This document shows positions 1,177-19,603 of a DNA stretch of 20,215 nt, piece after piece. The stretch spans positions 1 to 20,215 of the forward strand of contig JAISTN010000261.1 in the NCBI GenBank assembly GCA_031272565.1. Direction: 5' to 3'. Within the stretch, counting starts at the first letter, position 1; every line of letters begins with the position of its first letter. The translations under genes and the position numbers were made by a program. The DNA is from Bifidobacteriaceae bacterium. GTDB lineage: Bacteria > Actinomycetota > Actinomycetes > Actinomycetales > WQXJ01. A model generated the notes under the pieces. The model saw only the letters and a program-made list of their open reading frames with translations, ran no database searches and was not told the DNA's origin.

Positions 1177-3402
1177 GTGAGCCGCCGCCCATCCCGCCTT
1201 ATCCTCGTGGCCGCACCGGTGCTGGCCGCCGCACTAGTTATCAGCTTGACGGGAGGTGTGGCGAGCGGCATCGGCGGCCCAGATGACTCAGAGGCCGGTG
1301 TGGAGGCAGCCGGGGCCGTGCCTGTCCCCGCGCTGGCCATGGTGGGCGTGCTGAATCCGGTGGGCCTGAACAACGGCTTTGGGTTGGATCCCAAGACCCA
1401 GCGGACGGTCACCTGGCTGGCGTTGAACAGCGCCGGGTACACCGCGCCCTACATCAAGGTGGCCCCGGCTGGCAGTGACATCAGCCAGGCGGCGCCAAGT
1501 ACGGCCGGCTGCACGGTCAACGCCTTGGGTTCCGGGCTCAGTTCCTACACCGCCTACAGTTGCCCGGTGCGGGGCCTGACCCCTGGCACCACCTACCAGT
1601 ACAAGGTGGGCGCCCAGGCCAGCGCCGGCACCGACGAATCTGCCACCTTCAGCTTCACCACGGAAGCCAGCAGCGAGAGCACGTTCACCTTCCTGGACTT
1701 TGCCGACAGCCAAAGTTCTCCGGCCGCCACCTACACCACCTTCTGGGCCAACACACTGAACAGCGCCATCGCCGCCCACCCGGAGGCCAAGTTCCTGGTT
1801 CAGAACGGAGACATTGGCAACTCCAGTAGCGATGTGGCGGACTGGACCCTGTCGGTGGGGACGTCGCTCAGCGGCCTGGCCTTCAACCCGGTGTTGGGCA
1901 ACCATGACGATGGCTCGTCCGAGGCGCTGATGTGGGACGGCCTGTTCCCGCGCGAGTCGTTGACGGCGCGGCCCACTGCCACCGTGCCCTGGCCGTTGCA
2001 GTATTCGTATGTCTACGGCAACGCGTTGTTCTTGCACATCAACACGAACATGTATACCCCGTCGCGCCTGACGCGGACCTCCACCTGGGTGCGTCAGGCG
2101 GTGGCGGCCAACGGCAAGAACCCGGACGGCTCTGACCGCTTCATCATTGTGGTGCAGCACAAGTCGCCGTTTGGCGGCAGGCACTCCGGTGACGGCGCCT
2201 ACCCCACAGGTGATTACGGCAACCCCGACATTGTCAAGGAACTGCCCAAGACGTTTGCTGAGGTGGGTGTCGACCTGGTGCTGGCCGGCCATGACCACAA
2301 CCTGATCCGGTCGCTGCCCATCAAATGGGACTCGGTCACCGGCAAGGCGGTGTGGGACCGGTCCCTGGCCGGGCTGACCACCATCAATTCGGTCACCGAT
2401 GGTCTGGTCTACTACATTCCGCGCAACAGCGGTAGCAAGACCTATGCCGTGATCAATGAGCCCACCACCCAGAGCCGGCCGTGGGTGGCCTGGCGCTGGA
2501 GTTTCTCCGACTACGGCAACACACAGCCCGCCAACACGGTCTATTCGGTGGTGACCGTGAGCCGGGATTCGATCCAGGTCAAGAGCTACCGGACCGGTAA
2601 TCCCACCACGCCGGTGGACCAGTTCACAGTGGTGCAGCGCCAACCGGCGAACAAGTATGAGTGGTTCAGTTTGACGCCGGACTTGGAGGGTAACGGCCGG
2701 GGTGACATCCTGGCGGTGGACGCGACGACCGGCGCTCTGGACATGCACACGACGACTACCAGTGGGACGTTGTCGAGTAAGAAGGTGTTGGCGTCGTCTG
2801 GGTTGGGGAGGCACCGGGTGTTTGGCCCGGGGGACTGGAATGGTGACAAGAAGGCTGACATCATCACGGTTGACATGACTGGGACGATGTGGTTGCGGGC
2901 TGGTAATGGGGCTGGCGGGTTGGCGGCGCCGGTGCAGTGCGGCCGGGGCTGGACTAACTACCGGATCGTGCCAGCGGGTGACCTGAATGGTGATGGGGCG
3001 AACGACATGTTGGCGATCGACCAGGACGGGTTGCTGTGGTTGTATGCCGGGAATGGTAAGGGTGGGTTCATTCAGGGTCGGACTGAGGTGGGTCATGGCT
3101 GGGCTGGGTTTGACCTGTATGCGGCGGGTGATCTGAACAACGACAAGAAGGCTGACATCTTGTCGATCAACTCGTCTGGTTTGCTGTATGCCTACTTTGG
3201 GCGGGGTAATGGGACGTTCCAGGCGCCGGCGCAGGTTGGCCGCGGTTGGAGCAGGTTCACGTTGGCGGCGGGGGCTGATCTGAACGGTGACGGTAAGGCG
3301 GACATCGTGGGCCGGAGTGATTCGGTCGGTGACGTCTACTACTACCAGGGGAATGGGAACGGCACGTTCCAGGCCTCCAAGAAGATCGCCACCGGCTGGT
3401 GA
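1177..3402 (+). CDS. Secreted purple-acid-phosphatase-like metallophosphoesterase with FG-GAP C-terminus
   Basis: The 741-aa product probably hydrolyses phosphoesters outside the cell. The GTG start is chosen because AAGGAG (1164-1169) lies 7 nt upstream and a signal peptide follows at once (basic MSRRPSR, then a hydrophobic core to about residue 30). Residues ~57-163 resemble the Fn3-like N-terminal domain of purple acid phosphatases, with C112 and C129 possibly disulfide-bonded. The catalytic domain (~168-470) shows the full metal-ligand set: LDFADSQ (D174, D177), NGDIG (D212), GNHDD (N242, H243), H328 in VVQHKSPF, and GHDH (H372, H374). Residues ~494-741 are FG-GAP/VCBS repeats with DWNGDKKAD, DLNGDGAND, DLNNDKKAD and DLNGDGKAD loops. 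No sortase motif or C-terminal membrane helix is visible, so the protein is probably released or held by the repeats. Codon use changes sharply near 2650, where the repeat module begins. A paralogue lies at 7301-10003. The substrate is unknown. Confidence 0.88.
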   Translation: MSRRPSRLILVAAPVLAAALVISLTGGVASGIGGPDDSEAGVEAAGAVPVPALAMVGVLNPVGLNNGFGLDPKTQRTVTWLALNSAGYTAPYIKVAPAGSDISQAAPSTAGCTVNALGSGLSSYTAYSCPVRGLTPGTTYQYKVGAQASAGTDESATFSFTTEASSESTFTFLDFADSQSSPAATYTTFWANTLNSAIAAHPEAKFLVQNGDIGNSSSDVADWTLSVGTSLSGLAFNPVLGNHDDGSSEALMWDGLFPRESLTARPTATVPWPLQYSYVYGNALFLHINTNMYTPSRLTRTSTWVRQAVAANGKNPDGSDRFIIVVQHKSPFGGRHSGDGAYPTGDYGNPDIVKELPKTFAEVGVDLVLAGHDHNLIRSLPIKWDSVTGKAVWDRSLAGLTTINSVTDGLVYYIPRNSGSKTYAVINEPTTQSRPWVAWRWSFSDYGNTQPANTVYSVVTVSRDSIQVKSYRTGNPTTPVDQFTVVQRQPANKYEWFSLTPDLEGNGRGDILAVDATTGALDMHTTTTSGTLSSKKVLASSGLGRHRVFGPGDWNGDKKADIITVDMTGTMWLRAGNGAGGLAAPVQCGRGWTNYRIVPAGDLNGDGANDMLAIDQDGLLWLYAGNGKGGFIQGRTEVGHGWAGFDLYAAGDLNNDKKADILSINSSGLLYAYFGRGNGTFQAPAQVGRGWSRFTLAAGADLNGDGKADIVGRSDSVGDVYYYQGNGNGTFQASKKIATGW

Positions 3403-4234: not shown

Positions 4235-4355
4235 GTGCCGTGACAGAGCCCCAAGTAACGTGTTTGCCCCCGTTCCCCCGGGTGGCACTGGCAAGATGCT
4301 GTCGGCCTTGCCCTGCCTCCCTGGGTCGCCCGCACACCCGGAGGTGATCCCCCTC

Positions 4356-6431
4356 ATGGCAGCCTTACCAGAAGCCGCCACCATGCCGGATCGGCTCAAG
4401 GCCGGTGCCCGGGTGTGGGATGCGGCCGTGGCCGTGGGGCTGGGCATTTGCGGTTCAATCGCCCTGTTCCTGCAGCGCCCGCCGGCGGTGCCGGTGTTGG
4501 TGGCGGTGATCATTGTGCTGTCCCACGCCGTCATGGGCATGGCCTACCGGCCCCGCAGTGAAGCCACCTACGAGGCCTGGGAGCGCACGGGGGTGTGGGT
4601 CTTCGACGCCTTGCTGGTTGGTGTCATCTTGACCTCGGGGGTGTTTGGCTATGTCGATCAGCCGGACGCCCGGCGCGGCCCCGACATGCCGTGGCAAACC
4701 GCCGCCTGCCTGATCGCCATCGTGCTGGCCTGGCTGATCTGCGCCCGGCCCTTGTTGCCATGGGAACAGCCCTTGCCGGGGTGGCGCTGGTGGCCGATGG
4801 CGATCGTCGCGGCTCTGGCCATGCTGGGCGTGGGTTACGTGGCGCCATCGGCGGCCATCGCTCAAGTGGCGGTCTACGGCATGTTGTGGGTCAGCGGCTC
4901 GTCTTCCAAACTGCTGGCCCGGCCGGCGGCGGGCACGGTGCTGGTGGCGGCTGCCGCCGGGATTGGGCTGACGCTGTCGCGGGGCTGGGCCAGCGCCCTG
5001 GTGATCGAAATCTGCGGCGTGATCTACTCGCTGCTGATCGGCATGTGGCTGCACAGCGGCTGGCGGTGGGGGGCGGAGAAGGCCTACCTGCTGGCTACGT
5101 TGGCGGAAACCAGGGCCTCGCTGGCGGCGGCCGAACGCGAATCCGGCGTGATGGTGGAACGTGAACGGCTCGCGCGTGAGATTCATGACACCATCGCCCA
5201 GTCGCTGGTGGGTGTGCTGATGGCGGCCGAGCGGGCCCAGGGCCGGGCAGCCGGGCCAGAGGTGAATGATCCGCTGTTGGCGGACGAACTATCGGTGGTG
5301 ATCGAATCGGCCCGGGAGGCCCTCAAGGAGGCCAGGTCGCTGGTGGCGGTGAGCGCCAAACTGGAGCATTCTGGCCCGCTTGACGAGGCCCTGGCGCAAC
5401 TGGCTAAACGGTTCACCCGGGAGACCGGCATTGTGGTGGACGCGAGTGTTGACCTGCCGGGCGCTTTGCCGCCGGACTTGCAATTGATGCTGCTGCGAGC
5501 GGCTCAGGAAGGTTTAGGTAACGTGCGGAAGCATTCTGGGGCGGCTCACGCTTGGGTCACCGCCAAAGCTCAAGAGGGCCAATTGGTGTTGGAGGTGGTG
5601 GACGATGGCGTTGGCTTGGTGGAGGGACCGGGCGGTAGCGCGGCGGGCTTTGGCCTGGCCGGGTTGCGCGAACGGGTGGCGGCCGTGGGTGGCCGGGTCG
5701 AACTGTGCCAGGCCGATGGCGGCGGGGCGCGTTTGACCGTCCAGGTGTCTCATGCCATGGAAGAGCCAGCGCCGACACCGGAGCCGGCCGGCCAGGCCGC
5801 TGATCAAACCAGCCCGGCCATCACAGTGATCGTGGCGGATGACCACCCGATTGTGCGCAAGGGCCTGGTTGATCTGCTACGGGATGACGCCCAGTTTGAG
5901 GTCCTGGGTGAGGCCGCCACGGGTGAAGAGGCGGTGGAACTCGCCCGCGAACTGGGCCCGGACGTGGTCTTGATGGATTTGCAGATGCCGGGCCGGGGCG
6001 GGGTCTGGGCCACCCAACAGGTCCTGGCCGATGCCGCCCGCTTGGGCCGGGGCACCCGGACCTTGGCGGTCACCATGTTCGATTCGGATGTCCGGATTGT
6101 GGAGGCGATGGGGGCTGGCGCGGATGACTACATCTTGAAGGCCAACCCGCCGCCCAAGATTGTCGAGGCGGTGCGGCGGGTGGCCGCGGGCAAGCCCCAG
6201 CCTTCGGCCGTGGTGGCGGCGGCGTTGGCCAACCCCGGCCAGCCGCTGACTCAGCGCGAGGCGGAGGTGTTGCGGTTGGTGGCCCGCGGTATGCCGAACA
6301 AGGAGGTGGCGGCCAAGCTGTTCGTGGCCGAATCGACCATCAAGACGCATCTTTCCAGCATCTACGCCAAGCTTGGTGTCAACGACCGGACGCACGCCGT
6401 CACCGAGGCGATTGCCCGCGAGTTGATCTGA
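4356..6431 (+). CDS. Single-chain two-component system: NarL/DesK-type histidine kinase fused to a LuxR-type response regulator
   Basis: The frame is open from 4233, but I choose ATG 4356: GGAGGTGATCC (4340-4350) upstream matches the usual bacterial anti-Shine-Dalgarno end over 11 bases. This gives 691 aa. Residues ~24-231 hold seven or eight hydrophobic membrane segments with no recognisable sensor domain. A coiled signalling helix (~238-272) leads to the HisKA_3 H-box REIHDT (H277). The ATPase domain has the N-box around N389 (AQEGLGNVRKH), a DDGVG motif at ~416 and GFGLAGLRERV at ~431. After a Pro/Ala/Glu linker (~467-487) comes a REC domain: acidic pair D495/D496 in VADDHP, phosphoacceptor D541 in LMDLQMPG, T573 and K595. 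A LuxR/NarL helix-turn-helix follows (~631-682, LTQREAEVL to KLGVNDRTHAV). All catalytic residues are present on both sides, and no stop or frameshift separates the halves. It probably senses an envelope or membrane signal and controls transcription from the membrane. Targets are unknown; the exported-protein genes next door are candidates only by position. Confidence 0.9.
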   Translation: MAALPEAATMPDRLKAGARVWDAAVAVGLGICGSIALFLQRPPAVPVLVAVIIVLSHAVMGMAYRPRSEATYEAWERTGVWVFDALLVGVILTSGVFGYVDQPDARRGPDMPWQTAACLIAIVLAWLICARPLLPWEQPLPGWRWWPMAIVAALAMLGVGYVAPSAAIAQVAVYGMLWVSGSSSKLLARPAAGTVLVAAAAGIGLTLSRGWASALVIEICGVIYSLLIGMWLHSGWRWGAEKAYLLATLAETRASLAAAERESGVMVERERLAREIHDTIAQSLVGVLMAAERAQGRAAGPEVNDPLLADELSVVIESAREALKEARSLVAVSAKLEHSGPLDEALAQLAKRFTRETGIVVDASVDLPGALPPDLQLMLLRAAQEGLGNVRKHSGAAHAWVTAKAQEGQLVLEVVDDGVGLVEGPGGSAAGFGLAGLRERVAAVGGRVELCQADGGGARLTVQVSHAMEEPAPTPEPAGQAADQTSPAITVIVADDHPIVRKGLVDLLRDDAQFEVLGEAATGEEAVELARELGPDVVLMDLQMPGRGGVWATQQVLADAARLGRGTRTLAVTMFDSDVRIVEAMGAGADDYILKANPPPKIVEAVRRVAAGKPQPSAVVAAALANPGQPLTQREAEVLRLVARGMPNKEVAAKLFVAESTIKTHLSSIYAKLGVNDRTHAVTEAIARELI
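5743..5759 (+). promoter_or_regulatory. Possible internal translation start for a free response regulator
   Basis: ATG 5757-5759 is in frame at the kinase/linker junction (residue 468), with AGGTG at 5743-5747 about 9 nt upstream. Starting here would give a 224-aa soluble protein, the usual length of a NarL-type regulator. The ribosome site is weak, so this is speculative. Confidence 0.25.
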
Positions 6432-6532: not shown

Positions 6533-6558
6533 GGTGACAGCAACCGTCACCTGGAAGG
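6533..6558 (+). promoter_or_regulatory. Hairpin next to the ribosome site of the Ig-like protein gene
   Basis: GGTGAC (6533-6538) and GTCACC (6546-6551) can pair around a 7-nt loop. The stem ends one base before GGAAGG (6553-6558), the likely Shine-Dalgarno of the ATG at 6567, so it could modulate initiation. TAAGGT at 6524-6529 is a -10-like string without a good -35. Confidence 0.25.
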
Positions 6559-7300: not shown

Positions 7301-10003
7301 ATGCGTCGTGCCCGCCTATCCACTGTGTTCGCTGCCCTAAGTGCGGCCATCTTGCTGCCGTTAGGGGCTGGCGTTGGCCCAGCCCAGGCCGCCGGAGTCC
7401 TCGACCCGTACGGCCTGAACAACGGCTTTGGCCAGAACCCCAAGACCGAGCGTGTCATCACCTGGTTGGGTCTGGACAAGACCAAGTACACCAGCCCTTA
7501 CGTCAAGTTGGACATCGGTGGCGTGGCCGTCACGGCCAGCACCACCTGCACCACGAAGGACGTCACCAAGGCCATCAGTGACTACACCGCCTACACCTGC
7601 ACGGTCAAGGGCCTGACCCCTGGCACCACCTACAACTATCTGGTGGGCGCCAAGATCGGTAGCACGGACTACGAATCGCCCAAGTACCAGTTCACCACCG
7701 AGGCGGCTTCGACCAGCGAGTTCACGTTCCTCGACTTTGCTGATTCGCAGGGCGATGAGGACCTTTACACGCAGTTCTGGGGCAACACCTTGTCCAAGGC
7801 GTTGTCGCAGCACCCGGAGGCCGTCTTCCTGACCCACACGGGCGACATCGTCGACGATGTCGACAAGGACCACATGACCGGTTGGCTGAATGCTACCGGC
7901 AAGAACCTCAGGTCTCTGGCCTTCAACCCGGGGTTGGGCAACCACGATGACGGCTCCAGCGAGGGCGTCATGTGGGAGCAGTTGTTCTCCCGCCCGTCGT
8001 TGACGGCGGCCCCCAGCACCTCCACCTCCTACCCGTTGCAGTACGTCCAGGTCTATGGCAACGCGCTGTTCCTGTACGTCAACACCAACCTGGATTCCTC
8101 GTCCGAGCTGCAGAAGACCTCGGCCTGGGTGAAGCAGGCCGTGGCCGCCTATGGCACCAACGGGGATGGCACGTCGCGTTTCATCATCGTGCTGGAGCAC
8201 AAGTCGCCGTTTGGCGGCAAGCATGCCGGTTCCAGTTCCTATCCCGCGGGTGATTACAACAACTCAAACATCGTCAAGGAACTGCCCAAGACCTACGCCG
8301 AGGTGGGCGTGGACCTGGTCCTGGCCGGACATGACCACAACCTGATCCGCTCGCAGCCCATCACCTGGGACCTGGGCACTGGCAAGGCCGCTTGGGGCAC
8401 CGCCACCAACGCCAGCACGCCGCTGTCAAACATCAACTCGGGGTTGGACGGCCTGGTCTACTACATCCCGCGCAACTCCGGTGAAAAGACCTACAAGCTG
8501 ATCGACCCGCCCAAGTCGTCCAGCCGGCCCTGGATCAACTGGTACTACGCCTCGACCGACTATGGCAACGAGCAGCCGTCCAACACCATGTATTCGGCCG
8601 TCACGGTCAGCCAGACTTCGATCCAGGTCAAGACCTATAAGGTGGGCACCTCGGCCACCGCTGGTCAGTTGATCGACAGTTTCACCATCACACAGCCGGC
8701 GCAGTCGCAACTGACGCTGAGCCAGACCTCGTGGGGGCCGCAGTCCGCGGCCGAGACGCTCAACCTGGGCGTCACCAGCAACGTCGCCTGGAGCGCTGCC
8801 GTGACTTCTTCCACCTCCTGGTTGACGGTGGCTAACGCCAAGGGTTCCGGCAACGGCACCATCCAGATCAAGGTGACCCAGAACACCAGCAGCAAGGAAC
8901 GCACCGGCACCGTCACTATTGGCGGCCAGGGCGTGCCAACTCAGACCTTCACGGTGACGCAGCAGCCGCCAACCGTCAACTGGGGTCAGGCCACCTGGAC
9001 GGCGCCGATGGCGGGCGGCAGCATCACCGTGGCCGTCACCTCCAACACCAGCTGGACCATCAGCGGCACCAGCTCGTGGCTCTCCGTCAGCCCCACCTCG
9101 GGTAGCGGCAACGGCACGGTGACGGTGACGGCGGCCGCCAAGACGTCAACCGCCAAGCGGTCCCAGACGCTGAGCCTGAAGGCCTCCGGCGCCACCACCA
9201 AGACCCTGGTGGTGACCCAGGAAGCCAGTTCGGTGGCGGTCAGCCCCACCTCGGTGGCGGCGCCGGTGCTGGGTGGGACAACAGCGGCCATCACGGTGAC
9301 GGCGAACGTGCCGTGGACTGCCACCACCAGCGCCACCTGGTTGACCATCAATGGGGGCAGCGGCACTGGGAACGGTTCGTTCACGGTCACGGCGCAGGCC
9401 AAGACCAGTACTTCGTCCCGCTCCGCCACTGTCGCCATCAAGGGCGGTGGGGTGACCAAGAACGTGACGGTGACGCAGGCGGCCAGCACGCTGACCACCA
9501 GCCCGTCATCCAGTTGGAGTGTGACTCCGGTGGGTGGCAACACCAACGTCACCGTGACTTCGAACATCGCCTGGACCGTCACCACGACCGAGAGCTGGTT
9601 GCACGTCAGTTTGACGTCCGGCGTGGGCAATGGATCCTTCGTGATCACGGCCGATCCAAGGTCGACCTCGTTGTCCCGCACCGGCAAGGTGATAGTGACC
9701 GGCGGCGGTGTCACCAAGACCATCAACGTGTCGCAGGCGAGCACCACCTTGACGGTTAACCCTTCGAGCAGTTGGAACGCACCCAGTACGGCTGCCACCC
9801 GGTCGGAGACGGTTACCTCGAACACCACCTGGACGGTGACCTCAAACCAGTCGTGGCTAACGCTCTCAACTACCGGTGGCACCGGCAACGGCTCGTTCAC
9901 CATGATTGCCCAGTCGCATGACGCCTACGGCGGCACCCGGCCCACGGCCACCGTGACGCTGACGGGCAGCGGCGTCACCCGGACCATCACGGTGACCGAC
10001 TGA
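7301..10003 (+). CDS. Secreted purple-acid-phosphatase-like metallophosphoesterase with five BACON-like repeats
   Basis: The 900-aa exported protein starts at ATG 7301, with AAGGAG 5 nt upstream and a signal peptide ending near GPAQA (residue 30). Residues ~33-133 are the Fn3-like N-terminal domain of purple acid phosphatases (C83 and C100 possibly paired). The phosphoesterase domain (~140-465) has D145 and D148 in LDFADSQ, D182 in TGDI, N214/H215 in GNHDD, H300 in VLEHKSPF, and H344/H346 in AGHDH, so both metal sites look intact. These two domains align almost without gaps to the product of 1177-3402. The C-terminus differs completely: five ~85-residue repeats (~469-556, 558-642, 643-728, 730-814, 816-900) with a W-[TS]-x4-S-W-L strand, a G-S/T-G-N-G turn and a closing V-T-V-T-Q edge. 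They resemble BACON domains, linked elsewhere to carbohydrate or mucin binding. The physiological substrate and ligand are unknown. Confidence 0.88.
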   Translation: MRRARLSTVFAALSAAILLPLGAGVGPAQAAGVLDPYGLNNGFGQNPKTERVITWLGLDKTKYTSPYVKLDIGGVAVTASTTCTTKDVTKAISDYTAYTCTVKGLTPGTTYNYLVGAKIGSTDYESPKYQFTTEAASTSEFTFLDFADSQGDEDLYTQFWGNTLSKALSQHPEAVFLTHTGDIVDDVDKDHMTGWLNATGKNLRSLAFNPGLGNHDDGSSEGVMWEQLFSRPSLTAAPSTSTSYPLQYVQVYGNALFLYVNTNLDSSSELQKTSAWVKQAVAAYGTNGDGTSRFIIVLEHKSPFGGKHAGSSSYPAGDYNNSNIVKELPKTYAEVGVDLVLAGHDHNLIRSQPITWDLGTGKAAWGTATNASTPLSNINSGLDGLVYYIPRNSGEKTYKLIDPPKSSSRPWINWYYASTDYGNEQPSNTMYSAVTVSQTSIQVKTYKVGTSATAGQLIDSFTITQPAQSQLTLSQTSWGPQSAAETLNLGVTSNVAWSAAVTSSTSWLTVANAKGSGNGTIQIKVTQNTSSKERTGTVTIGGQGVPTQTFTVTQQPPTVNWGQATWTAPMAGGSITVAVTSNTSWTISGTSSWLSVSPTSGSGNGTVTVTAAAKTSTAKRSQTLSLKASGATTKTLVVTQEASSVAVSPTSVAAPVLGGTTAAITVTANVPWTATTSATWLTINGGSGTGNGSFTVTAQAKTSTSSRSATVAIKGGGVTKNVTVTQAASTLTTSPSSSWSVTPVGGNTNVTVTSNIAWTVTTTESWLHVSLTSGVGNGSFVITADPRSTSLSRTGKVIVTGGGVTKTINVSQASTTLTVNPSSSWNAPSTAATRSETVTSNTTWTVTSNQSWLTLSTTGGTGNGSFTMIAQSHDAYGGTRPTATVTLTGSGVTRTITVTD

Positions 10004-10247: not shown

Positions 10248-12110
10248 ATGGCCAGTGCCCTTCAAACCATCTTGACCAAAGACTTGCCCTTTGCCCTGAT
10301 CCGGCGTGGCACCGCCCCCAGCGTCGACCTGCTGACCGGGACTATCGCCGATGTCGATGCGACGGCCAGTATCCCGCTGGGCGACCAGGCGGACACCATC
10401 TTGGCCTTGGTTCCGTTCCGGCAGATCGCCGAGCGGGGTTTCGATGTGGTGGACGATGCCGCGCCCCTGCGCTGCCTGGTGGCCACCAGCCGCCAGACGG
10501 TTGACCTGGCCGAACTGCTGGCCGAACTGCCCGGGGCGGCACCAGCCTTCCAGGCCGAGGGCTTCGACATTGACGACCAGGCCTATGCGGAGCAGGTCAA
10601 GACGGTCATCCGGGAGGAGATTGGCCGGGGCGAGGGCGCCAACTTTGTGATCCACCGGTCCTTCCGGGGGCAGGTCGAGGCCAGCCCCAGCCAGGCGGTG
10701 CTGGCCTGGTTGGGGGCGCTGCTGCGGCGCGAACAGGGCGCCTACTGGACCTATGCCGTCAGCACCCCGGGGGTGGCCTTTGCCGGGGCCAGCCCGGAGC
10801 GCCACCTGACGGTCAAGGGGGGCGTGGTGACAATGAACCCCATCAGCGGCACCTACCGCCACCCGGCGGAAGGCCCCACCGTGCCCGGCATGCTGACCTT
10901 CCTGACGGACGCTAAAGAGGTTGATGAACTGTTCATGGTGGTGGATGAAGAACTCAAGCTGATGAGCGCGATTTGCCCCAACGGCGGCCGGGTCCTGGGA
11001 CCCTACCTGAAACCAATGAGCAAGGTCACCCACACTGAGTACTTGCTGGAGGGCGCCACCGACAAGGACCCGCGGGAGGTGTTGCGCCACACCATGTTTG
11101 CGCCCACTGTGACCGGCTCGCCCATGGAAAACGCCTGCACCGTGATTGCCCGCCGCGAGAAGCGTCCCCGCGGCTACTACGCCGGCGTCATGGCCCTATT
11201 TGAGCGGGACGGGGTGACCGGGCGCTGGGATGTGGACGCGCCCATCATGATCCGCACCGCCTATGTCAGCCCGGCGGGCCAGGTGTCGGTGCCCGCCGGC
11301 GCCACCTTGGTGCGGCACTCCGACCCGCTGAACGAGGTGGCGGAGACCCGCACCAAGGCGGCTGGCGTGCTGACCGCCATAGGCGCGCTGGCGGCCCCTG
11401 AAGCGGCGGATGGCCCCGCCGCTGAGGGCCAGGGCGCGGCGGTGGCGGACGATCCGCAGGTGGCCCGGACGCTGCTGTATCGCAACGAGCGGCTGGCCCA
11501 GTTCTGGCTGCAGCCGCAGACCGGCCAGGACCAGGTCCTGGCCGGTCTGGGCATCACGATCGTGGACGCGGAGGACCATTTCTCCCAGATGCTGGCCCAC
11601 CAGCTACGCCACCTGGGCGCCAGGGCCACGGTGGTGTCGTGGCGGGGCTACGACCCGGCGGCGCCATCGTTCGCCGATGACGTGGTGGTAGCAGGGCCAG
11701 GCCCCGGCGACCCTAGTTCGGCCGAACCCAGAATTGAAGCGCTGCGGCGTGTCATTGTGCGCCGGCTGGCCACCGCCAAGCCGTTGCTGGCGGTTTGTCT
11801 GTCGCACCAGATTCTGTGTCACCACCTGGGCTTTGACTTGCGCCAGTTGACCCGGCCGCACCAGGGCGAACAGTTGACCGACAACCTGTTTGGTTTGACC
11901 GCCACCCTGGGCTACTACAACACTTTCACGGCGGTGGCGCCTTTGACGCCGCCGGAAGGCTTCACGCTGGCTCGGCGCATGGGCACCGACGAGGTGATTG
12001 CGCTCAAGGGCCCACGCTTCGCCTCGCTCCAGGGCCACCCCGAGTCGGCTTTGTCGACGGACGGCCTGAACGTGCTGGGGACGCTCCTTCACGCTATTGT
12101 CAAGGGTTGA
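10248..12110 (+). CDS. trpEG: Fused glutamine-dependent anthranilate synthase (TrpE-TrpG), PhzE-like type
   Basis: The 620-aa product converts chorismate and glutamine to anthranilate, the first step of tryptophan synthesis. ATG 10248 is chosen because AAGGAG (10235-10240) precedes it; the frame extends 11 codons upstream into the attenuator region without a ribosome site. The chorismate-binding half (~1-385) carries MNPISGT (196-202), the KEVDELFMVVDEEL helix (223-236), THTEYLLEG (261-269), MFAPTVTGSPMENA (283-296), GYYAGVMALF and LVRHSDP (354-360). After an Ala/Gly/Glu linker (~383-403) comes a class I glutamine amidotransferase with GPGPGDP (483-489), nucleophile C517 in AVCLSHQ, and H597/E599 in GHPES. 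These motifs and the fusion order match phenazine PhzE (ADIC synthase) more than stand-alone TrpE. The Trp leader argues for a role in tryptophan synthesis. No LLES-type Trp feedback motif is obvious at the N-terminus. No other trp or phz gene is in the window. Confidence 0.85.
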   Translation: MASALQTILTKDLPFALIRRGTAPSVDLLTGTIADVDATASIPLGDQADTILALVPFRQIAERGFDVVDDAAPLRCLVATSRQTVDLAELLAELPGAAPAFQAEGFDIDDQAYAEQVKTVIREEIGRGEGANFVIHRSFRGQVEASPSQAVLAWLGALLRREQGAYWTYAVSTPGVAFAGASPERHLTVKGGVVTMNPISGTYRHPAEGPTVPGMLTFLTDAKEVDELFMVVDEELKLMSAICPNGGRVLGPYLKPMSKVTHTEYLLEGATDKDPREVLRHTMFAPTVTGSPMENACTVIARREKRPRGYYAGVMALFERDGVTGRWDVDAPIMIRTAYVSPAGQVSVPAGATLVRHSDPLNEVAETRTKAAGVLTAIGALAAPEAADGPAAEGQGAAVADDPQVARTLLYRNERLAQFWLQPQTGQDQVLAGLGITIVDAEDHFSQMLAHQLRHLGARATVVSWRGYDPAAPSFADDVVVAGPGPGDPSSAEPRIEALRRVIVRRLATAKPLLAVCLSHQILCHHLGFDLRQLTRPHQGEQLTDNLFGLTATLGYYNTFTAVAPLTPPEGFTLARRMGTDEVIALKGPRFASLQGHPESALSTDGLNVLGTLLHAIVKG

Positions 12111-12133
12111 AAGGTCGCGCTTCCGCGCGCCCT

Positions 12134-12156
12134 CAGGCCGGCTCCGGCCGGCCCTG
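12134..12156. terminator. GC hairpin between trpEG and the nucleoside operon
   Basis: GGCCGGC (12136-12142) and GCCGGCC (12147-12153) form a perfect 7-bp stem with a TCCG loop, extended by CA/TG across a one-base bulge. No T-run follows. It could stop or slow transcription from trpEG. I found no convincing promoter in the 79-nt gap. Confidence 0.4.
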
Positions 12157-12189
12157 GATCCCCCCAGGACAACCCAAGGGAGTAGCGCA

Positions 12190-13290
12190 TTGAAAAAAAA
12201 GTACGCAGTGGTAAGTCTGCTGGCGGTGGCAGGCCTTGTCTTGGCCGCCTGTTCCGACGCACCCGATGAGAGCACCGACAACGGCACTACCGATGCCGCC
12301 ACCGAAACCAGCGGTGCGGCCACCAGCGAGGCGGCCTCCGATTTCTTCGCCTGCATGGTGTCGGATGAGGGCGGTTTCGACGACCAGTCCTTCAACCAGT
12401 CCACCTATGAGGGCCTGCAGCGGGCTGGGGTGGACTTGGGGATCGAGGTCCTAGCCCTCGAATCCCATGATTCGAACGACTACGCGCCCAACCTGGAAGA
12501 CATGGTGGCTAAGGGTTGCGACATCACCATTACGGTGGGCTTCAACCTGTCGGAGGGCACCAAGACGGCGGCCGAGGCCAACCCCAGCTTGAACTACGCC
12601 ATCGTCGATGATTCGCAGATTTCGCTGCCCAACGTCAAGCCGATTGTCTACGCCACGCAAGAGGCCGCCTTCCTGGCCGGCTATGTGGCCGCCGCCTACA
12701 GCACCACCGGCAAGGTGGGTACGTTTGGCGGTGCGAAGATCCCCACGGTGACGATCTTCATGGATGGCTTTGCGGATGGCGTGGCCCGCTACAACCAGGA
12801 CAAGGGCGGCAACGTCGAACTGCTGGGCTGGGACAAGGCGACCCAGAACGGCTTGTTCACGGACGACTTCACAGACCAGGCCAAGGGTAAGACGACGGCC
12901 CTGAACCTGATCGCACAGGGTGCCGATGTCATCATGCCGGTGGCCGGTCCGGTCGGTCTGGGCGCCGCCCAGGCCGCCCAAGAGGACGGCAACACGGTCA
13001 TCATCTGGGTGGACGCGGACGGCTACCTGACCACGGAATACGGCTCGATCATTTTGACCTCGGTCATGAAGCTGATGGGCGAGGCGGTTGAGAACGTCAT
13101 CACGGACACCAAGGACGGCAATTTCTCGCCGGATCCGTACGTGGGCAACCTGGCCAACGGCGGTGTGGCGATTGCGCCGTTCCACGATTTCACCAGTCAG
13201 GTGTCGGATGAAACCAAGGCCGAGGTGGCCGCCCTTGAGGCCGCCATCCAGTCCGGTGAATTGAAGGTCGAATCAGACTCGGCCCCGTGA
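12190..13290 (+). CDS. bmpA: Bmp-family nucleoside-binding lipoprotein (ABC transporter)
   Basis: The 366-aa solute receptor of the nucleoside ABC importer is anchored to the outer face of the membrane. The frame is open from 12097, but TTG 12190 is preferred. AAGGGAG (12176-12182) lies 7 nt upstream, and the product begins MKKKYAVV with a hydrophobic core and the lipobox L-A-A-C (lipidated C21). The mature part, after a ~30-residue Thr/Ser/Ala/Glu linker, is a Bmp/PnrA-type periplasmic-binding fold: SDEGGFDDQSFNQ (58-70), DDSQ (140-143), YATQEAAFLAGYVAA (154-168), KVGTFGGAKIP (175-185), FMDGF (190-194) and VIWVDADGY-like segments. Bmp proteins bind purine and pyrimidine nucleosides. Codons 2-4 form a run of eight A in a GC-rich gene. 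It is followed by transporter and salvage genes, with a strong hairpin before the ATPase gene. The preferred nucleoside is inferred from context. Confidence 0.88.
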   Translation: MKKKYAVVSLLAVAGLVLAACSDAPDESTDNGTTDAATETSGAATSEAASDFFACMVSDEGGFDDQSFNQSTYEGLQRAGVDLGIEVLALESHDSNDYAPNLEDMVAKGCDITITVGFNLSEGTKTAAEANPSLNYAIVDDSQISLPNVKPIVYATQEAAFLAGYVAAAYSTTGKVGTFGGAKIPTVTIFMDGFADGVARYNQDKGGNVELLGWDKATQNGLFTDDFTDQAKGKTTALNLIAQGADVIMPVAGPVGLGAAQAAQEDGNTVIIWVDADGYLTTEYGSIILTSVMKLMGEAVENVITDTKDGNFSPDPYVGNLANGGVAIAPFHDFTSQVSDETKAEVAALEAAIQSGELKVESDSAP

Positions 13291-13324
13291 TGGGGTAACC
13301 GACTGGTTTGACCTGGCTAGCTCT

Positions 13325-13334
13325 CAGACGTCTG
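13325..13334. promoter_or_regulatory. Short perfect palindrome CAGACGTCTG
   Basis: A 10-base perfect palindrome, 35 bases after the lipoprotein stop and just before the long hairpin. It could be a protein-binding half of the intergenic control region or chance. Confidence 0.2.
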
Positions 13335-13339
13335 CCTGG

Positions 13340-13373
13340 GTGGGGCGGTATCGGCGGTCCGATGCCGCCCCAC
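13340..13373 (+). promoter_or_regulatory. 15-bp intergenic hairpin between lipoprotein and ATPase genes
   Basis: GTGGGGCGGTATCGG (13340-13354) pairs with CCGATGCCGCCCCAC (13359-13373) around a CGGT loop; the only non-Watson-Crick pair is one G-U wobble. No T-run follows. Its place after a binding-protein gene suggests partial termination or 3'-end stabilisation, which would raise lipoprotein output over the downstream ATPase and permeases. Confidence 0.7.
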
Positions 13374-13427
13374 ACCGGGCGGCGCGTCGGGGCGGCCCGG
13401 TCTCCCGGCTCTTAGGAGGAGCGTTCG

Positions 13428-14993
13428 ATGCGCCTTGAGTTGCGGGGCATCTCCAAGCGGTTTGGCGATTTCTATGCCAACCGCGAGATCGACCTGGTGG
13501 TAGAGCCGGGCCAGATTCACGCCCTGTTGGGCGAAAACGGCGCCGGCAAGTCAACCTTGATGAACGTTCTGTACGGCCTGTACCAGCCCGATGCCGGCCA
13601 GATCGTGCTGGACGGCCAGCCGGTCACGTTTGCCGGGCCGGGCCAGGCGATGGCGGCCGGGATTGGCATGGTGCACCAGCATTTCATGCTGGTGCCGGTC
13701 TTCACGGTGGCGGAAAACGTGGTGCTGGGGCACGAACCGGTGCACCGGGGTGACCTGATTGACCTGCCCAAGGCGCGGGCGTTGGTGCGGGAGATTTCGG
13801 CCCGCTTCAACTTCGATGTCGACCCGGACGCCCTGGTGGAGGACCTACCGGTGGGTGTGCAGCAGCGGGTGGAGATCATCAAGGCGTTGTCCCGCTCCGC
13901 ACAAGTCTTGATTCTGGACGAGCCGACCGCGGTGCTGACCCCGCAGGAAACCGACGAGTTGATGGCGATCATGCGGCAACTGGCCCAGGCCGGCACGTCG
14001 ATTGTTTTCATTACCCACAAGCTGCGTGAGGTGCGTGAGGTGGCGGACACCATCACGGTGATCCGCCTGGGTCGCGTGGTGGGGCAAGCCAGCCCCAGCG
14101 AACCGGAGGCCGCCCTGGCGTCCATGATGGTAGGCCGGGCGGTCAACTTGGCGGCGCAGAAAGAGGTGGCGGCGGGGCAGGCCGGGCCGGTGGCCCTGTC
14201 GGTCAAGAACCTGACCATCCTGGAACGCGGCGGCGTGCCGGTGTTGGACAACGTGTCGTTCGATGTCCGCCAGGGTGAGGTGCTGGCCGTGGCCGGGGTG
14301 CAGGGCAACGGGCAGACCGAACTGACCGAGGCGCTGATTGGGCTGCGCCAGCCAACCTCCGGGTCGATCGAACTGGCTGGCACCAATCTGGCCGGCCGGA
14401 CGGTCAAGCAGGTGCTGGACAGCGGCGTGGGCTACGTGCCGGAGGACCGCGGCAAGGACGGCATGGTGGCGACCTTCACCATCGCGGAGAATCTGGTCTT
14501 GGACCAGTTTGACCGGCCGCCCTTTGCGGCCCGGGGCTGGCTTGACTTGAAGGCGATTGGCCAGGCCGCCGCCCAGCGGATCGAGGCCTTCGATGTCCGC
14601 GTGGGCAGCGCCAAGGATGCCATGGCGACGCTGTCCGGCGGCAACCAGCAGAAGGTCATTTTGGCGCGCGAACTGTCCAAGGAGTTGAAGCTGCTGATTG
14701 CGGCCCAGCCCACCCGGGGCCTGGATGTCGGCTCGATCGAAACGGTCCACGCGGAGATTCTGAAGCAGCGTGACTTGGGCATTCCGGTGCTGGTGGTGTC
14801 GACCGAACTGGATGAGATCGCGGCGCTGGCGGACCGGGTCGCGGTGATGTACCGGGGCAAGGTGCTGGGCATTGTGCCCGGTGGCACCAGCCGCGAGACC
14901 TTGGGCTTGATGATGGCGGGGGTGCCGGCCGAGGTGGCCGTGGCCGGCGGGTCCGGCGGGGCGGCGGACGGCCAGGGGGAGGTGACACCATGA
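13428..14993 (+). CDS. nupA: Nucleoside ABC transporter, tandem ATP-binding protein
   Basis: The 521-aa cytoplasmic ATPase powers the importer. ATG 13428 has AGGAGG (13414-13419) 8 nt upstream. NBD1 has Walker A GENGAGKST (35-43), a Q-loop in VHQHFML (82-88), a relaxed signature LPVGVQQR (140-147), Walker B LILDEP (161-166) and switch H197. NBD2 has a degenerate Walker A GVQGNGQTE (290-298, no Lys), signature LSGGNQQK (402-409) and a degenerate Walker B LLIAAQPTRGLD (422-433). One competent and one degenerate site, with the A-A-Q-P variant, is typical of the RbsA/NupA sugar and nucleoside group. The gene overlaps the next permease by 4 nt (ATGA), so the two are translationally coupled. The assignment to nucleosides rests on the Bmp receptor and the downstream salvage genes. 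Confidence 0.92.
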   Translation: MRLELRGISKRFGDFYANREIDLVVEPGQIHALLGENGAGKSTLMNVLYGLYQPDAGQIVLDGQPVTFAGPGQAMAAGIGMVHQHFMLVPVFTVAENVVLGHEPVHRGDLIDLPKARALVREISARFNFDVDPDALVEDLPVGVQQRVEIIKALSRSAQVLILDEPTAVLTPQETDELMAIMRQLAQAGTSIVFITHKLREVREVADTITVIRLGRVVGQASPSEPEAALASMMVGRAVNLAAQKEVAAGQAGPVALSVKNLTILERGGVPVLDNVSFDVRQGEVLAVAGVQGNGQTELTEALIGLRQPTSGSIELAGTNLAGRTVKQVLDSGVGYVPEDRGKDGMVATFTIAENLVLDQFDRPPFAARGWLDLKAIGQAAAQRIEAFDVRVGSAKDAMATLSGGNQQKVILARELSKELKLLIAAQPTRGLDVGSIETVHAEILKQRDLGIPVLVVSTELDEIAALADRVAVMYRGKVLGIVPGGTSRETLGLMMAGVPAEVAVAGGSGGAADGQGEVTP

Positions 14994-16369
14994 GCGACCA
15001 GACGTTGCCCCCGGTGGAACCCGATCCGTCACCAGGCGCTGCCGTGACGCCGGCGGCCGCCGATGTCGTGTCAACGCCTGCGGCCGAGGCCGCCGAGGCG
15101 GCATCGGGCACCGTCGCCAAACCGTCTCAGGGCCGGCCGGCCGGCCAGCCTCCCGCCGCGCCCCCACCCGGGCGCTTCCAACTGGCCCTCAAGGAAATCC
15201 TGTCCGGTTCCTGGGTCACATCGGTCCTGGCGGTGCTGCTGGCCATGGTGGTGGGGGCGGTGCTGGTGGCTGCGGCCAACCCGGATGTGCAAAGTTCCGC
15301 CTCCTACCTGTTCGCGCGGCCGTCCGATTTCTTTGGGGCCGTCTGGGAATCGGTCAAGGACGCCTACGTCGCCATGTTCCAGGGCGCGGTAGTCAACTTC
15401 CAGGGCCAGGATGCGGTCGCCTTCATCAAGCCGATCACCAACACGTTGACCCAGGCCACGCCGCTGATCTTCGCCGGCCTGGGCCTGGCGGTGGGTTTCC
15501 GGGCCGGCCTGTTCAACATTGGCGCTCAAGGCCAGATCATCCTGGGCGCCATTCCCTGCGCCTGGCTCGGTTACGCGCTGCACCTGCCGCCGGTGGTCCA
15601 CCTGCTGGTGTGCGTGCTGGGGGCCATGGCCGGCGGCGCGCTGTGGGGTTTCATCCCGGGCATCTTGAAGGCCCGCACCGGCGCCAACGAGGTCATTGTG
15701 ACGATCATGCTGAACTCAGTGGCGGCCTTCGGCGTGTCCTATCTGCTGACGTTGGACGCCTTCCAGCGGGAGGGTTCCAACAATCCGCAAACGCCGCTGA
15801 TCGACTCCACCGCCCAGTTCCCCTATATCTTTGGCGGCCGTTTCACCACCCACTTTGGCTTCATCCTGGCTCTGCTGGCGGCCGTCTTCACCTGGTGGCT
15901 GCTGGACCGCTCCACCCTGGGTTTCCGCTTCCGGGCGCTGGGTGAAAACCCGCAGGCCGCCCGCACGGCCGGCATCAACACCAACGCCTGTTTTATCTGG
16001 GTCATGGTGATTGCCGGGGGGTTGGCCGGGCTGGCCGGCGCGGCCCAAGTCCAGGGCACCTTCCACTACTTGAACTCCGGTGTGGCGGCCTCGTTTGGCT
16101 TCGACGCCATCACGGTGGCGCTGCTGGGCCGGTCCCGGCCGCTGGGTACCGTCCTGGCCGGGTTGCTGTTTGGCGGGCTCAAGGCCGCCGCGCCGATGGT
16201 CCAATCGGCCGCCGGGTCCAGCGACGTGGTGCTGGTGCTGCAATCCGTCATTGTCCTGCTGATCGCCGCGCCACCCCTGATCCGGGCCGTCTTCCGGACA
16301 CCCAACCCGGAGCGGGTGCAGGCCCTCAAACTGGCCGCCGCGGCCGGCCCGGGGGAGGTGGCGGCATGA
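14990..16369 (+). CDS. nupB: Nucleoside ABC transporter permease 1
   Basis: The 459-aa membrane protein belongs to the branched-chain/sugar permease fold (BPD_transp_2). About nine hydrophobic segments are visible (near 75-95, 153-170, 178-195, 200-225, 235-255, 286-304, 331-353, 370-400 and 411-432). FNIGAQGQIILGA (175-187) and the coupling-loop region around RALGENPQAARTAGIN (315-330) are family hallmarks. The first ~60 residues are a Pro/Ala/Glu-rich, apparently disordered cytoplasmic extension; family members usually begin close to the first membrane helix. The start is fixed by the ATGA overlap with the ATPase gene and by GGGGGAGG (14976-14983) upstream. The gene ends in another ATGA overlap with permease 2, so ATPase and permeases are made together. 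Confidence 0.9.
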   Translation: MSDQTLPPVEPDPSPGAAVTPAAADVVSTPAAEAAEAASGTVAKPSQGRPAGQPPAAPPPGRFQLALKEILSGSWVTSVLAVLLAMVVGAVLVAAANPDVQSSASYLFARPSDFFGAVWESVKDAYVAMFQGAVVNFQGQDAVAFIKPITNTLTQATPLIFAGLGLAVGFRAGLFNIGAQGQIILGAIPCAWLGYALHLPPVVHLLVCVLGAMAGGALWGFIPGILKARTGANEVIVTIMLNSVAAFGVSYLLTLDAFQREGSNNPQTPLIDSTAQFPYIFGGRFTTHFGFILALLAAVFTWWLLDRSTLGFRFRALGENPQAARTAGINTNACFIWVMVIAGGLAGLAGAAQVQGTFHYLNSGVAASFGFDAITVALLGRSRPLGTVLAGLLFGGLKAAAPMVQSAAGSSDVVLVLQSVIVLLIAAPPLIRAVFRTPNPERVQALKLAAAAGPGEVAA

Positions 16370-17661
16370 GCCTGACCGGACTAGCCCCAGCCCCCCAAGC
16401 GGCCGAACTGCCGTTGGCTCCCGTGCTGGAACCGAAGACCTTCAAGGCGCCCATCGCGTTGAGCGTCTTTTGGGCCGTGGCCTGCGTTTTCACTGCCGTC
16501 ACACCGGCCGGGGTGAGCACTAAGTTCGAACTGGCCCGGCCTACCGACTTCGTCAAGATCCCGGATTTCGCCGTGCCGTCCCGGCCGTCCGTGATTGTGC
16601 TTTGCCTGCTGATGTTGGCGCCGTTGGCGGCATCCTGGCGCCTGGCCAACCAGCGCCGCCGGGTGGGCCTGTGGCTACCGTCCGCGTTTGGCGTGCTGTG
16701 GGTGCTGAGCTTCATGGTCTGGGTGGTGGCCGGCAAGACGGCCACCTGGACCTTGACCATCCTGTTGGCTTCCGCCCTGTCGCTGTCCATTCCGCTGGTG
16801 TTTGGCGCCATGACCGGCCTGGTCTGTGAACGGGTCGGTGTGATCAACGTGGCCATCGAAGGCCAACTGCTAGCCGGGGCCTTCCTGGCGGCGGTGGTGG
16901 CCTCCCGGGCCTCCAACTCCTACGCCGGCCTGATCGCGGCGCCCATTGCCGGGGCTCTGGTGGGCGCCCTGCTGGCGGTCTTTGCGGTCAAGTACTGGGT
17001 GGACCACATCATTGTTGGCGTGGTGCTGAACGTGCTGGTGAGCGGGCTGACCAGCTACCTGTTCTCAACTGTCCTGACGCGCGATGCCGCCCATTGGAAC
17101 CACGCTATCCAATTGCCGGTGCTGCCCATCCCGCTGCTCAGCCGCATCCCGGTGATCGGGCCCGTGCTATTCCGCCAAACCCTGCTGGTCTACCTGATGT
17201 ATGTGGCGGTGTTGGCTCTTAACATCATGGTCTTCAAGTCCCGTTGGGGCCTGCGCTTGCGGGCCTGCGGCGAACACCCCAAGGCGGCCGACACGGTTGG
17301 CATCAGGGTCAACCGGACCCGCATCCGCAACACCATTCTGGGTGGCGCCATCGCCGGCCTGGGCGGGGCCTACTTCACGGTGGCCTCCGGGCTGGCCTTC
17401 ACCAAGGACATGAGCGCCGGCAAGGGCTTCATCGCGCTGGCCGCCATGATTCTGGGTCGCTGGAACCCCAAGGGCGCGCTGGCCGCCGCGCTGCTGTTTG
17501 GCTTTGCCGAAGAACTGGCCGTGATGCTGGGTGTCATGGCCACCCCCATACCATCGAACATCTTGAACATGACCCCGTACCTGCTGACCATTTTCGCGGT
17601 GGCCGGTTTGGTGGGCCGGGTCCGTGCCCCCGCCGCTGAGGGCACCTTCTACCGCGACTAG
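16366..17661 (+). CDS. nupC: Nucleoside ABC transporter permease 2
   Basis: The 431-aa integral membrane protein is the second half of the translocation channel. Hydrophobic segments lie at about 30-46, 75-92, 103-122, 128-150, 166-180, 188-208, 213-233, 272-290, 322-340, 368-390 and 402-417. VGVINVAIEGQLLAGA (157-172) is the conserved permease motif corresponding to FNIGAQGQ in permease 1. RLRACGEHPKAADTVGI (297-313) is the coupling segment that contacts the ATPase. ATG 16366 overlaps the permease 1 stop in ATGA, with GGGGGAGG (16350-16357) upstream inside that gene. It ends 14 nt before the cytidine deaminase gene, which links transport to catabolism on one transcript. Confidence 0.9.
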   Translation: MSLTGLAPAPQAAELPLAPVLEPKTFKAPIALSVFWAVACVFTAVTPAGVSTKFELARPTDFVKIPDFAVPSRPSVIVLCLLMLAPLAASWRLANQRRRVGLWLPSAFGVLWVLSFMVWVVAGKTATWTLTILLASALSLSIPLVFGAMTGLVCERVGVINVAIEGQLLAGAFLAAVVASRASNSYAGLIAAPIAGALVGALLAVFAVKYWVDHIIVGVVLNVLVSGLTSYLFSTVLTRDAAHWNHAIQLPVLPIPLLSRIPVIGPVLFRQTLLVYLMYVAVLALNIMVFKSRWGLRLRACGEHPKAADTVGIRVNRTRIRNTILGGAIAGLGGAYFTVASGLAFTKDMSAGKGFIALAAMILGRWNPKGALAAALLFGFAEELAVMLGVMATPIPSNILNMTPYLLTIFAVAGLVGRVRAPAAEGTFYRD

Positions 17662-17675
17662 AACTGGAGACGCCG

Positions 17676-18100
17676 ATGAGCCGTACCGCCATTGAACTGG
17701 ATTGGGAACGCTTGACCAACCAGGCCGCTGCCGCCACGGCCTACGCCTACGTGCCCTATTCGCACTATCCGGTGGGGGCGGCCGCCATCGCGGCCGATGG
17801 CCGCCTGTTGATGGGCGCCAATGTTGAAAACGCCAGTTACGGCCTGACGCTGTGCGCGGAGTGTTCGCTGGTCAGCCAGTTGATCATGACCGGCGGCGGG
17901 CGCCTCACCCACTTTGTCTGTGTGGATGGCAACGGCTCGGTGATGGCGCCGTGTGGCCGCTGCCGGCAGTTGCTGTGGGAGCACGGCGGGCCGCACCTGC
18001 GGATCTTGACGCCCACCGGCGAATCGACTTTGGGCCACCTGTTGCCGGAGCCTTGGGGCTTGGATGACTTGAAGCGCGGCCCGGCCTGGGGGGAGAACTG

Positions 18101-18101
<1 letters not shown>
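17676..18101 (+). CDS. cdd: Cytidine deaminase
   Basis: The 141-aa zinc enzyme hydrolyses cytidine and deoxycytidine to uridine and deoxyuridine. The substrate-binding N49/E51 pair in NVENASYG, the C-A-E motif (zinc ligand C60, catalytic E62) and P-C-G-R-C (zinc ligands C93 and C96) are all present. VPYSHYPVGAA (26-36) is the typical N-terminal strand. The length is that of the small, tetrameric, three-cysteine class. GGAGA (17666-17670) precedes the ATG. The stop shares one base with the start of the phosphorylase gene (TGATG), so translation is coupled. The product feeds pyrimidine nucleosides to the next enzyme. Confidence 0.95.

Positions 18102-19599
<1,498 letters not shown>

Positions 19600-19603
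<4 letters not shown>

Follow-up and report, generated by a model that had tools for sequence, protein, structure and literature searches.

A probable hybrid two-component regulator of the NarL/DesK type, tethered to the membrane, in an uncultured actinobacterial family

A single gene from a Bifidobacteriaceae bacterium probably codes for a hybrid two-component regulator of the NarL/DesK type that is tethered to the membrane. The gene (4356–6431, plus strand) lies within the 20,215-nucleotide stretch of DNA analysed here (the window; contig JAISTN010000261.1 of assembly GCA_031272565.1) and specifies 691 residues that join a membrane region, a histidine kinase, a receiver, and a LuxR-type DNA-binding domain. 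Phosphotransfer may occur in cis or between the two chains of a dimer, and DNA may be bound from the membrane. The source MAG comprises 2.28 Mb in 436 contigs and is 69.5% complete, the gene being on contig C251, and it also encodes separate kinases and regulators homologous to either half.

Domain anatomy of the fused protein

The initial annotation described an uninterrupted 691-residue frame, and 4356–6431 on the plus strand does translate from ATG to TGA without an internal stop. The longest frame begins upstream at TTG 4233; ATG 4356 carries a strong Shine–Dalgarno sequence, GGAGGTGA, located 8 nt upstream (4340–4347). The parts of the gene given below are all on the plus strand. The amino-terminal membrane sensor region (residues 20–232; 4413–5051) harbors six to seven hydrophobic segments by Kyte–Doolittle hydropathy, with seven peaks when the cut-off is set to 1.5 and six when it is set to 1.6, all before residue 233, and the regulator half exhibits no peak at 1.5. 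A multi-segment membrane region was therefore correctly recognized earlier, while the count of seven or eight segments given for it is only roughly supported.

Four Pfam domains score above cut-off. HisKA_3 (residues 268–331; 5157–5348) holds H277 (5184–5186), and HATPase_c (residues 378–464; 5487–5747) belongs to a family whose profile matches DesK kinase structures. A 24-residue linker rich in alanine, proline, and glutamate (5748–5819), which contains M468 (5757), connects the kinase to the receiver (Response_reg, residues 491–607; 5826–6176), and the chain terminates in a GerE/LuxR-type DNA-binding domain (residues 629–684; 6240–6407). The catalytic residues H277, D541 (5976–5978), T573, and K595 are present as had been claimed, together with the N-box and G-box motifs; the kinase motifs read HDTIAQ, GLGNVRKH, DDGVG, and GFGLAGL. 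The kinase half has the hallmarks of the DesK/NarL type, i.e., HisKA_3 with its phospho-acceptor histidine and HATPase_c with N- and G-boxes, and the regulator half those of NarL/FixJ proteins, in which GerE is preceded by a receiver that bears the acidic pocket, Asp, Thr, and Lys. Pfam detects no HPt domain, no recognized sensor domain, and no AraC-type domain in the protein, GerE being found instead of the last. Among solved structures, DesK is one of the best matches to the kinase half, and VraR, NarL, and DesR are among the best to the regulator half; among the best 60 of 204 matched chains, none covers both halves.

Genomic surroundings

The flanking genes, compared by Pfam for the window and the loci L045, L048, L049, and L051 (the flanks of L046 being left out), differ between loci, and the neighborhood therefore gives no functional clue. 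In the window, two large proteins with metallophosphatase domains flank the region (1177–3402 and 7301–10003), one with BACON and one with FG-GAP repeats. Further downstream (12097–19603), genes for a BMP-type substrate-binding protein, an ABC transporter, cytidine deaminase, and thymidine phosphorylase form a likely nucleoside salvage cluster.

A perfect inverted repeat, GGTGAC-N7-GTCACC (6533–6551), lies just upstream of a gene for a small secreted-looking protein (ATG 6567). Its reading as an operator would be no more than a guess, as the pattern was chosen after the repeat had been noticed. Across the whole MAG, the pattern has three exact matches and the reversed control has one. With up to two mismatches, there are seven matches in the window versus a shuffle mean of 2.2, and 0 of 100 shuffles reach seven.

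Fused relatives within the family

The family sample consists of 18 genomes that GTDB assigns to one family, including that of the window; NCBI gives the MAG proteins of this family the label Bifidobacteriaceae. Eight have a match at E ≤ 1e-40, and one-by-one inspection places members of this fused family in seven of the 18; no member was found in the other 11. The eighth match, in G001, is a two-gene pair that shares one frame with a TGA between the genes. Kinase, receiver, and GerE occupy one frame in G000, G007, G012, G014, and G016, the last four being 44, 44, 47, and 53% identical to the window protein, respectively. The fused frame of G014 runs off the contig start and has no N-terminus, and that of G016 begins at the contig start with only the ATPase half of the kinase (HATPase_c sub-threshold) ahead of the receiver and GerE. 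On contig 100 of G011, kinase and receiver are present and GerE is absent, and G006 has the receiver and GerE only. The domain columns align in the fused relatives despite linkers of different length. Since four other genomes keep the fusion, the possibility that the relatives all carry two genes, named in the initial annotation as evidence against a genuine fusion, fails.

In wider searches, the four domains occur together in P0001, P0002, P0004, and P0092 (among the best 120 of 144 protein matches), and the search of genome contigs yields 17 loci that are 27–40% identical over parts of the query.

Distribution of the fusion

An order-level sample of 297 genomes was searched with query residues 250–691, with five candidates scored per genome. 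Among the best rows listed, stop-free spans from kinase core to receiver come from G000, G014, G007, G016, and G011, all five of which belong to the window's own family; G012 appears as two rows inside one 750-residue frame. Thirty-eight further rows were fetched (L081–L118), in which either a long open frame was present or the match started at the last residues of the kinase. The kinase adjoins the regulator without a shared stop-free frame in every one of these, the two genes being in different frames in 36 pairs and sharing a frame, interrupted by one stop, in the other two. The arrangement as two genes, which had been stated to be the normal one, is that of 38 of 38 inspected order-level relatives. 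The offset of the kinase frame to the regulator frame is identical in all 36 different-frame pairs; because the frames differ by this same offset, fusing such a pair needs a frame change. The more distant kinase and regulator genes of L053, L054, L056, and L061 share a frame with exactly one stop between them, so that the loss of one stop would fuse them.

Weaker fusions can be missed in such a search, as exemplified by the GAF-type fusion of G038, which is absent from the listed rows of the order sample. When a phylum sample of 296 genomes was searched with the G038 fusion as query, 4 of 31 rows were stop-free spans (G038, G399, G401, and G528).

The kinase–receiver junction

Coding potential at the junction was scored in 60-nt steps across 5646–5957, using codon frequencies tabulated from ten other genes of the window. 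The annotated frame outscores both alternatives at 22 of 22 steps. Over the 24 linker codons, it scores approximately 0, while the two alternatives score −12 and −19 bits, and the linker is therefore coding-compatible rather than strongly coding. The GC3 of the fused gene is 0.82, compared to 0.81–0.87 in the ten genes behind the table; by GC3 alone, another frame is higher than the annotated one at 18 of 22 steps.

It is unlikely that the gene yields two products, i.e., the full membrane protein together with a free soluble regulator that arises through proteolytic cleavage of the linker or through translation starting internally at M468. The in-frame ATG at 5757 is preceded 9 nt upstream by AGGTG, and regulator-only copies exist in the family. 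However, 42 of the 369 internal ATG/GTG codons have an equally good Shine–Dalgarno match, and a 5-nt match is missing from the linker of each of the four fused relatives that retain GerE. M468 may be regarded as a weak candidate for an internal start that is not distinctive against those 369 codons. In L049, which is without GerE, the linker does contain a 5-nt match, at a TTG.

An assembly or sequencing artefact, in which an ordinary kinase gene and regulator gene, overlapping or out of frame with each other, were joined in error, is improbable. Such an error is conceivable, as the window junction is covered by a single assembled contig of a 436-contig MAG, a shifted-frame TGA overlaps GTG 5826, and the two-gene arrangement appears in the sister pair P0006/P0121 (4545-bp contig); moreover, because the kinase is out of the frame of the regulator in 36 of the 38 order-level pairs, a one-base error could fuse pairs of this kind. 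A start at GTG 5826, however, would fall three residues past the point at which the relative P0122 is annotated to begin, the annotated frame outscores its alternatives at every junction step and across the linker, and the four other genomes that keep the fusion were assembled separately. The junction, for which confirmation had been advised, shows no sign of a frameshift in its codon usage and recurs in relatives.

Trimmed and regulator-only forms

Membrane tethering is not constant in the family, since P0003 and P0005 retain kinase and receiver with GerE absent, and some copies are regulator-only. In L050 (contig C158 of G011), a scrap of the kinase C-terminus precedes the receiver and GerE, behind an unrelated gene. 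Eight leader comparisons were made. The N-terminal leader of the regulator P0126 is similar to the leader of P0007, a fused kinase (score 44, with 0 of 1000 shuffles as good), and matches P0003 with 1 of 1000 shuffles as good, but is unlike P0002 (559 of 1000) and L045 (135 of 1000). For L052, no convincing leader match was found among four (best, 18 of 1000 shuffles). In the regulator tree, L050, L052, P0123, P0124, and P0126 sit among the fused or kinase-bearing copies, whereas the separate regulators P0127 and P0122 branch outside them.

Two further observations concern copy arrangement. P0123 and P0124 are related separate regulators, each on a 6121-base contig, and are probably neighboring copies. 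G011 holds both L049 (C100), a membrane kinase–receiver without the HTH, and L050, with its receiver, GerE, and kinase scrap, an arrangement that looks as though a single fused gene family had been shared out over two loci.

That the fusion is degenerating, with tethering of no benefit or even a burden and copies disappearing as they shed their HTH or kinase, is very improbable: P0003 and P0005 without GerE, and the scrap of L050 with the leader of P0126, as if a kinase had been cut out, are what it would predict, but the catalytic residues and domains of the window copy are intact, its codon usage is normal, and the domain order survives at 44–53% identity in four genomes.

History of the fusion

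The closest kinase among the matches listed, P0006, is a 466-residue protein of 50% identity that ends without a receiver. P0121, a separate gene product of 210 residues with 64% identity to the regulator half, is among the closest regulators. Each is on a JGI contig of 4545 bases, and the two are therefore probably neighbors on one contig.

Trees were built from 15 kinases (419 columns) and from kinase and regulator concatenated (623 columns). P0006/P0121 are placed beside the window protein with bootstrap values of 94 (kinase) and 90 (concatenated). A fused clade that excludes P0006 is rejected (AU 0.006 and 0.009, respectively), while the tests do not reject a grouping that unites P0006 with the remaining fused proteins (AU 0.090 and 0.124). 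The regulator-only tree decides nothing (AU 0.28–0.64). Over a shorter region, the kinase tree unites P0001 and P0006 at a bootstrap of 81, and P0006 groups with the other fused proteins at 71 (regulator) and 78 (concatenation); in a wider regulator tree, P0121 likewise joins these other fused proteins, with a bootstrap of 67.

Because the kinase and concatenated trees reject a fused clade without the stand-alone P0006, the history needs at least two events: the genes fused on two occasions, or they fused once and one fused gene later split. A possible course, put forward tentatively, is that the genes fused twice in one uncultured actinobacterial family and subsequently split into HK–REC and REC–HTH forms. 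This would leave a natural series in which one system exists as fused, as trimmed, and as separate proteins, with tethering both gained and lost along it.

Comparison with known systems

Hybrid kinases occur commonly, and the HTCS form an established class. In classical hybrid kinases with a phosphorelay, the receiver passes its phosphate on to an HPt or to a second regulator; the window protein itself contains no HPt domain. In two-gene systems of the NarL/FixJ type, the regulator is soluble and separate from the kinase. The window protein shares its kinase, receiver, and HTH families with DesK/DesR and other NarL/FixJ systems, but these consist of two separate proteins, whereas in the window kinase and regulator share one frame, with only a weak candidate for an internal start. 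The P0006/P0121 pair includes the closest kinase among the matches listed, yet it too would be two proteins, the pairing being the probable one given above.

In the Bacteroides HTCS, exemplified by BT4124 and BT4663 (PMC11253607), a membrane kinase and a DNA-binding regulator are joined in one chain. The 691-residue protein is similar in that a membrane sensor kinase (membrane by hydropathy only), a receiver, and a DNA-binding domain form one chain, and in that a dimeric kinase would keep two DNA-binding domains together. There are also salient differences. The DNA-binding domain of HTCS is of the AraC type, in contrast to the HisKA_3, multi-segment membrane region, and GerE of the window protein, and HTCS regulate polysaccharide use (PMC11253607). 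The best reading is that it would work like the AraC-type Bacteroides HTCS but is not a member of that class. The design had been called unusual; among the listed order rows the fusion is confined to the window's family, but the HTCS design, and soluble fusions of the same domain types, are known elsewhere.

The order kinase–receiver–GerE in one frame is shared by five other, soluble-looking proteins, P0092 (Ktedonobacterales; named "hybrid sensor histidine kinase/response regulator transcription factor" by NCBI) and those of G038, G399, G401, and G528; in G401 (L079), HisKA_3 was not detected and the receiver is below cut-off. Their sequences are distant from the window family, and the latter four harbor GAF or PAS sensors, with none detected in P0092. 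At a cut-off of 1.6, G038 and G401 each have one hydrophobic peak, which lies inside a GAF or receiver domain, and G399, G528, and P0092 have none. These five fusions are thus without a multi-span membrane domain, unlike the window family, in which the corresponding counts are six for the window protein, four for L045, five for L048, seven for L049, and four for the truncated L051.

Proposed mechanism

Kinases of these families dimerize, phosphorylate their own histidine, and hand the phosphate to an aspartate of the receiver. In the proposed model, the kinase would dimerize through HisKA_3, and a membrane or extracellular signal would alter its activity. H277 would be phosphorylated from ATP, and the phosphate would be transferred to D541 of the attached receiver, either in the same chain or in the partner chain. 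The two HTH domains would always be side by side in such a dimer. Since the kinase would already be dimeric and its HTH domains permanently paired, the main control would be the relief of REC–HTH closure upon phosphorylation rather than monomer-to-dimer switching. The tethered HTH pair would then bind promoters that come to the membrane.

For a tethered HTCS dimer, PMC11253607 argues that monomer-to-dimer switching is unlikely and shows closure between the receiver and the DNA-binding domain; it further states that the recognition helix of NarL is likewise held at the interdomain surface. By analogy, closure logic of the HTCS type is the best-supported model for the 691-residue protein, with the steps beyond its domain anatomy remaining conditional.

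Significance

Earlier census work is reported to have found that fusion of kinases to receivers is influenced by the presence of a membrane sensor or a DNA-binding output (Cock and Whitworth 2007, as relayed in PMC3018481), the reason given being that sensor and output each need their own cellular place. The family described here joins both, a membrane sensor and a DNA-binding output, in one chain, with an HTH of the LuxR type. No membrane HisKA_3–REC–GerE fusion was found in the titles and abstract openings listed by one open-access library. As far as these searches reach, a multi-span membrane NarL/DesK fusion that retains the LuxR-type HTH is a new form of an already known design. The family includes moderately diverged relatives in fused, trimmed, and two-gene form, and it may serve to test how tethering affects the specificity between kinase and regulator, and how it affects a type of regulator that is usually switched by dimerization.
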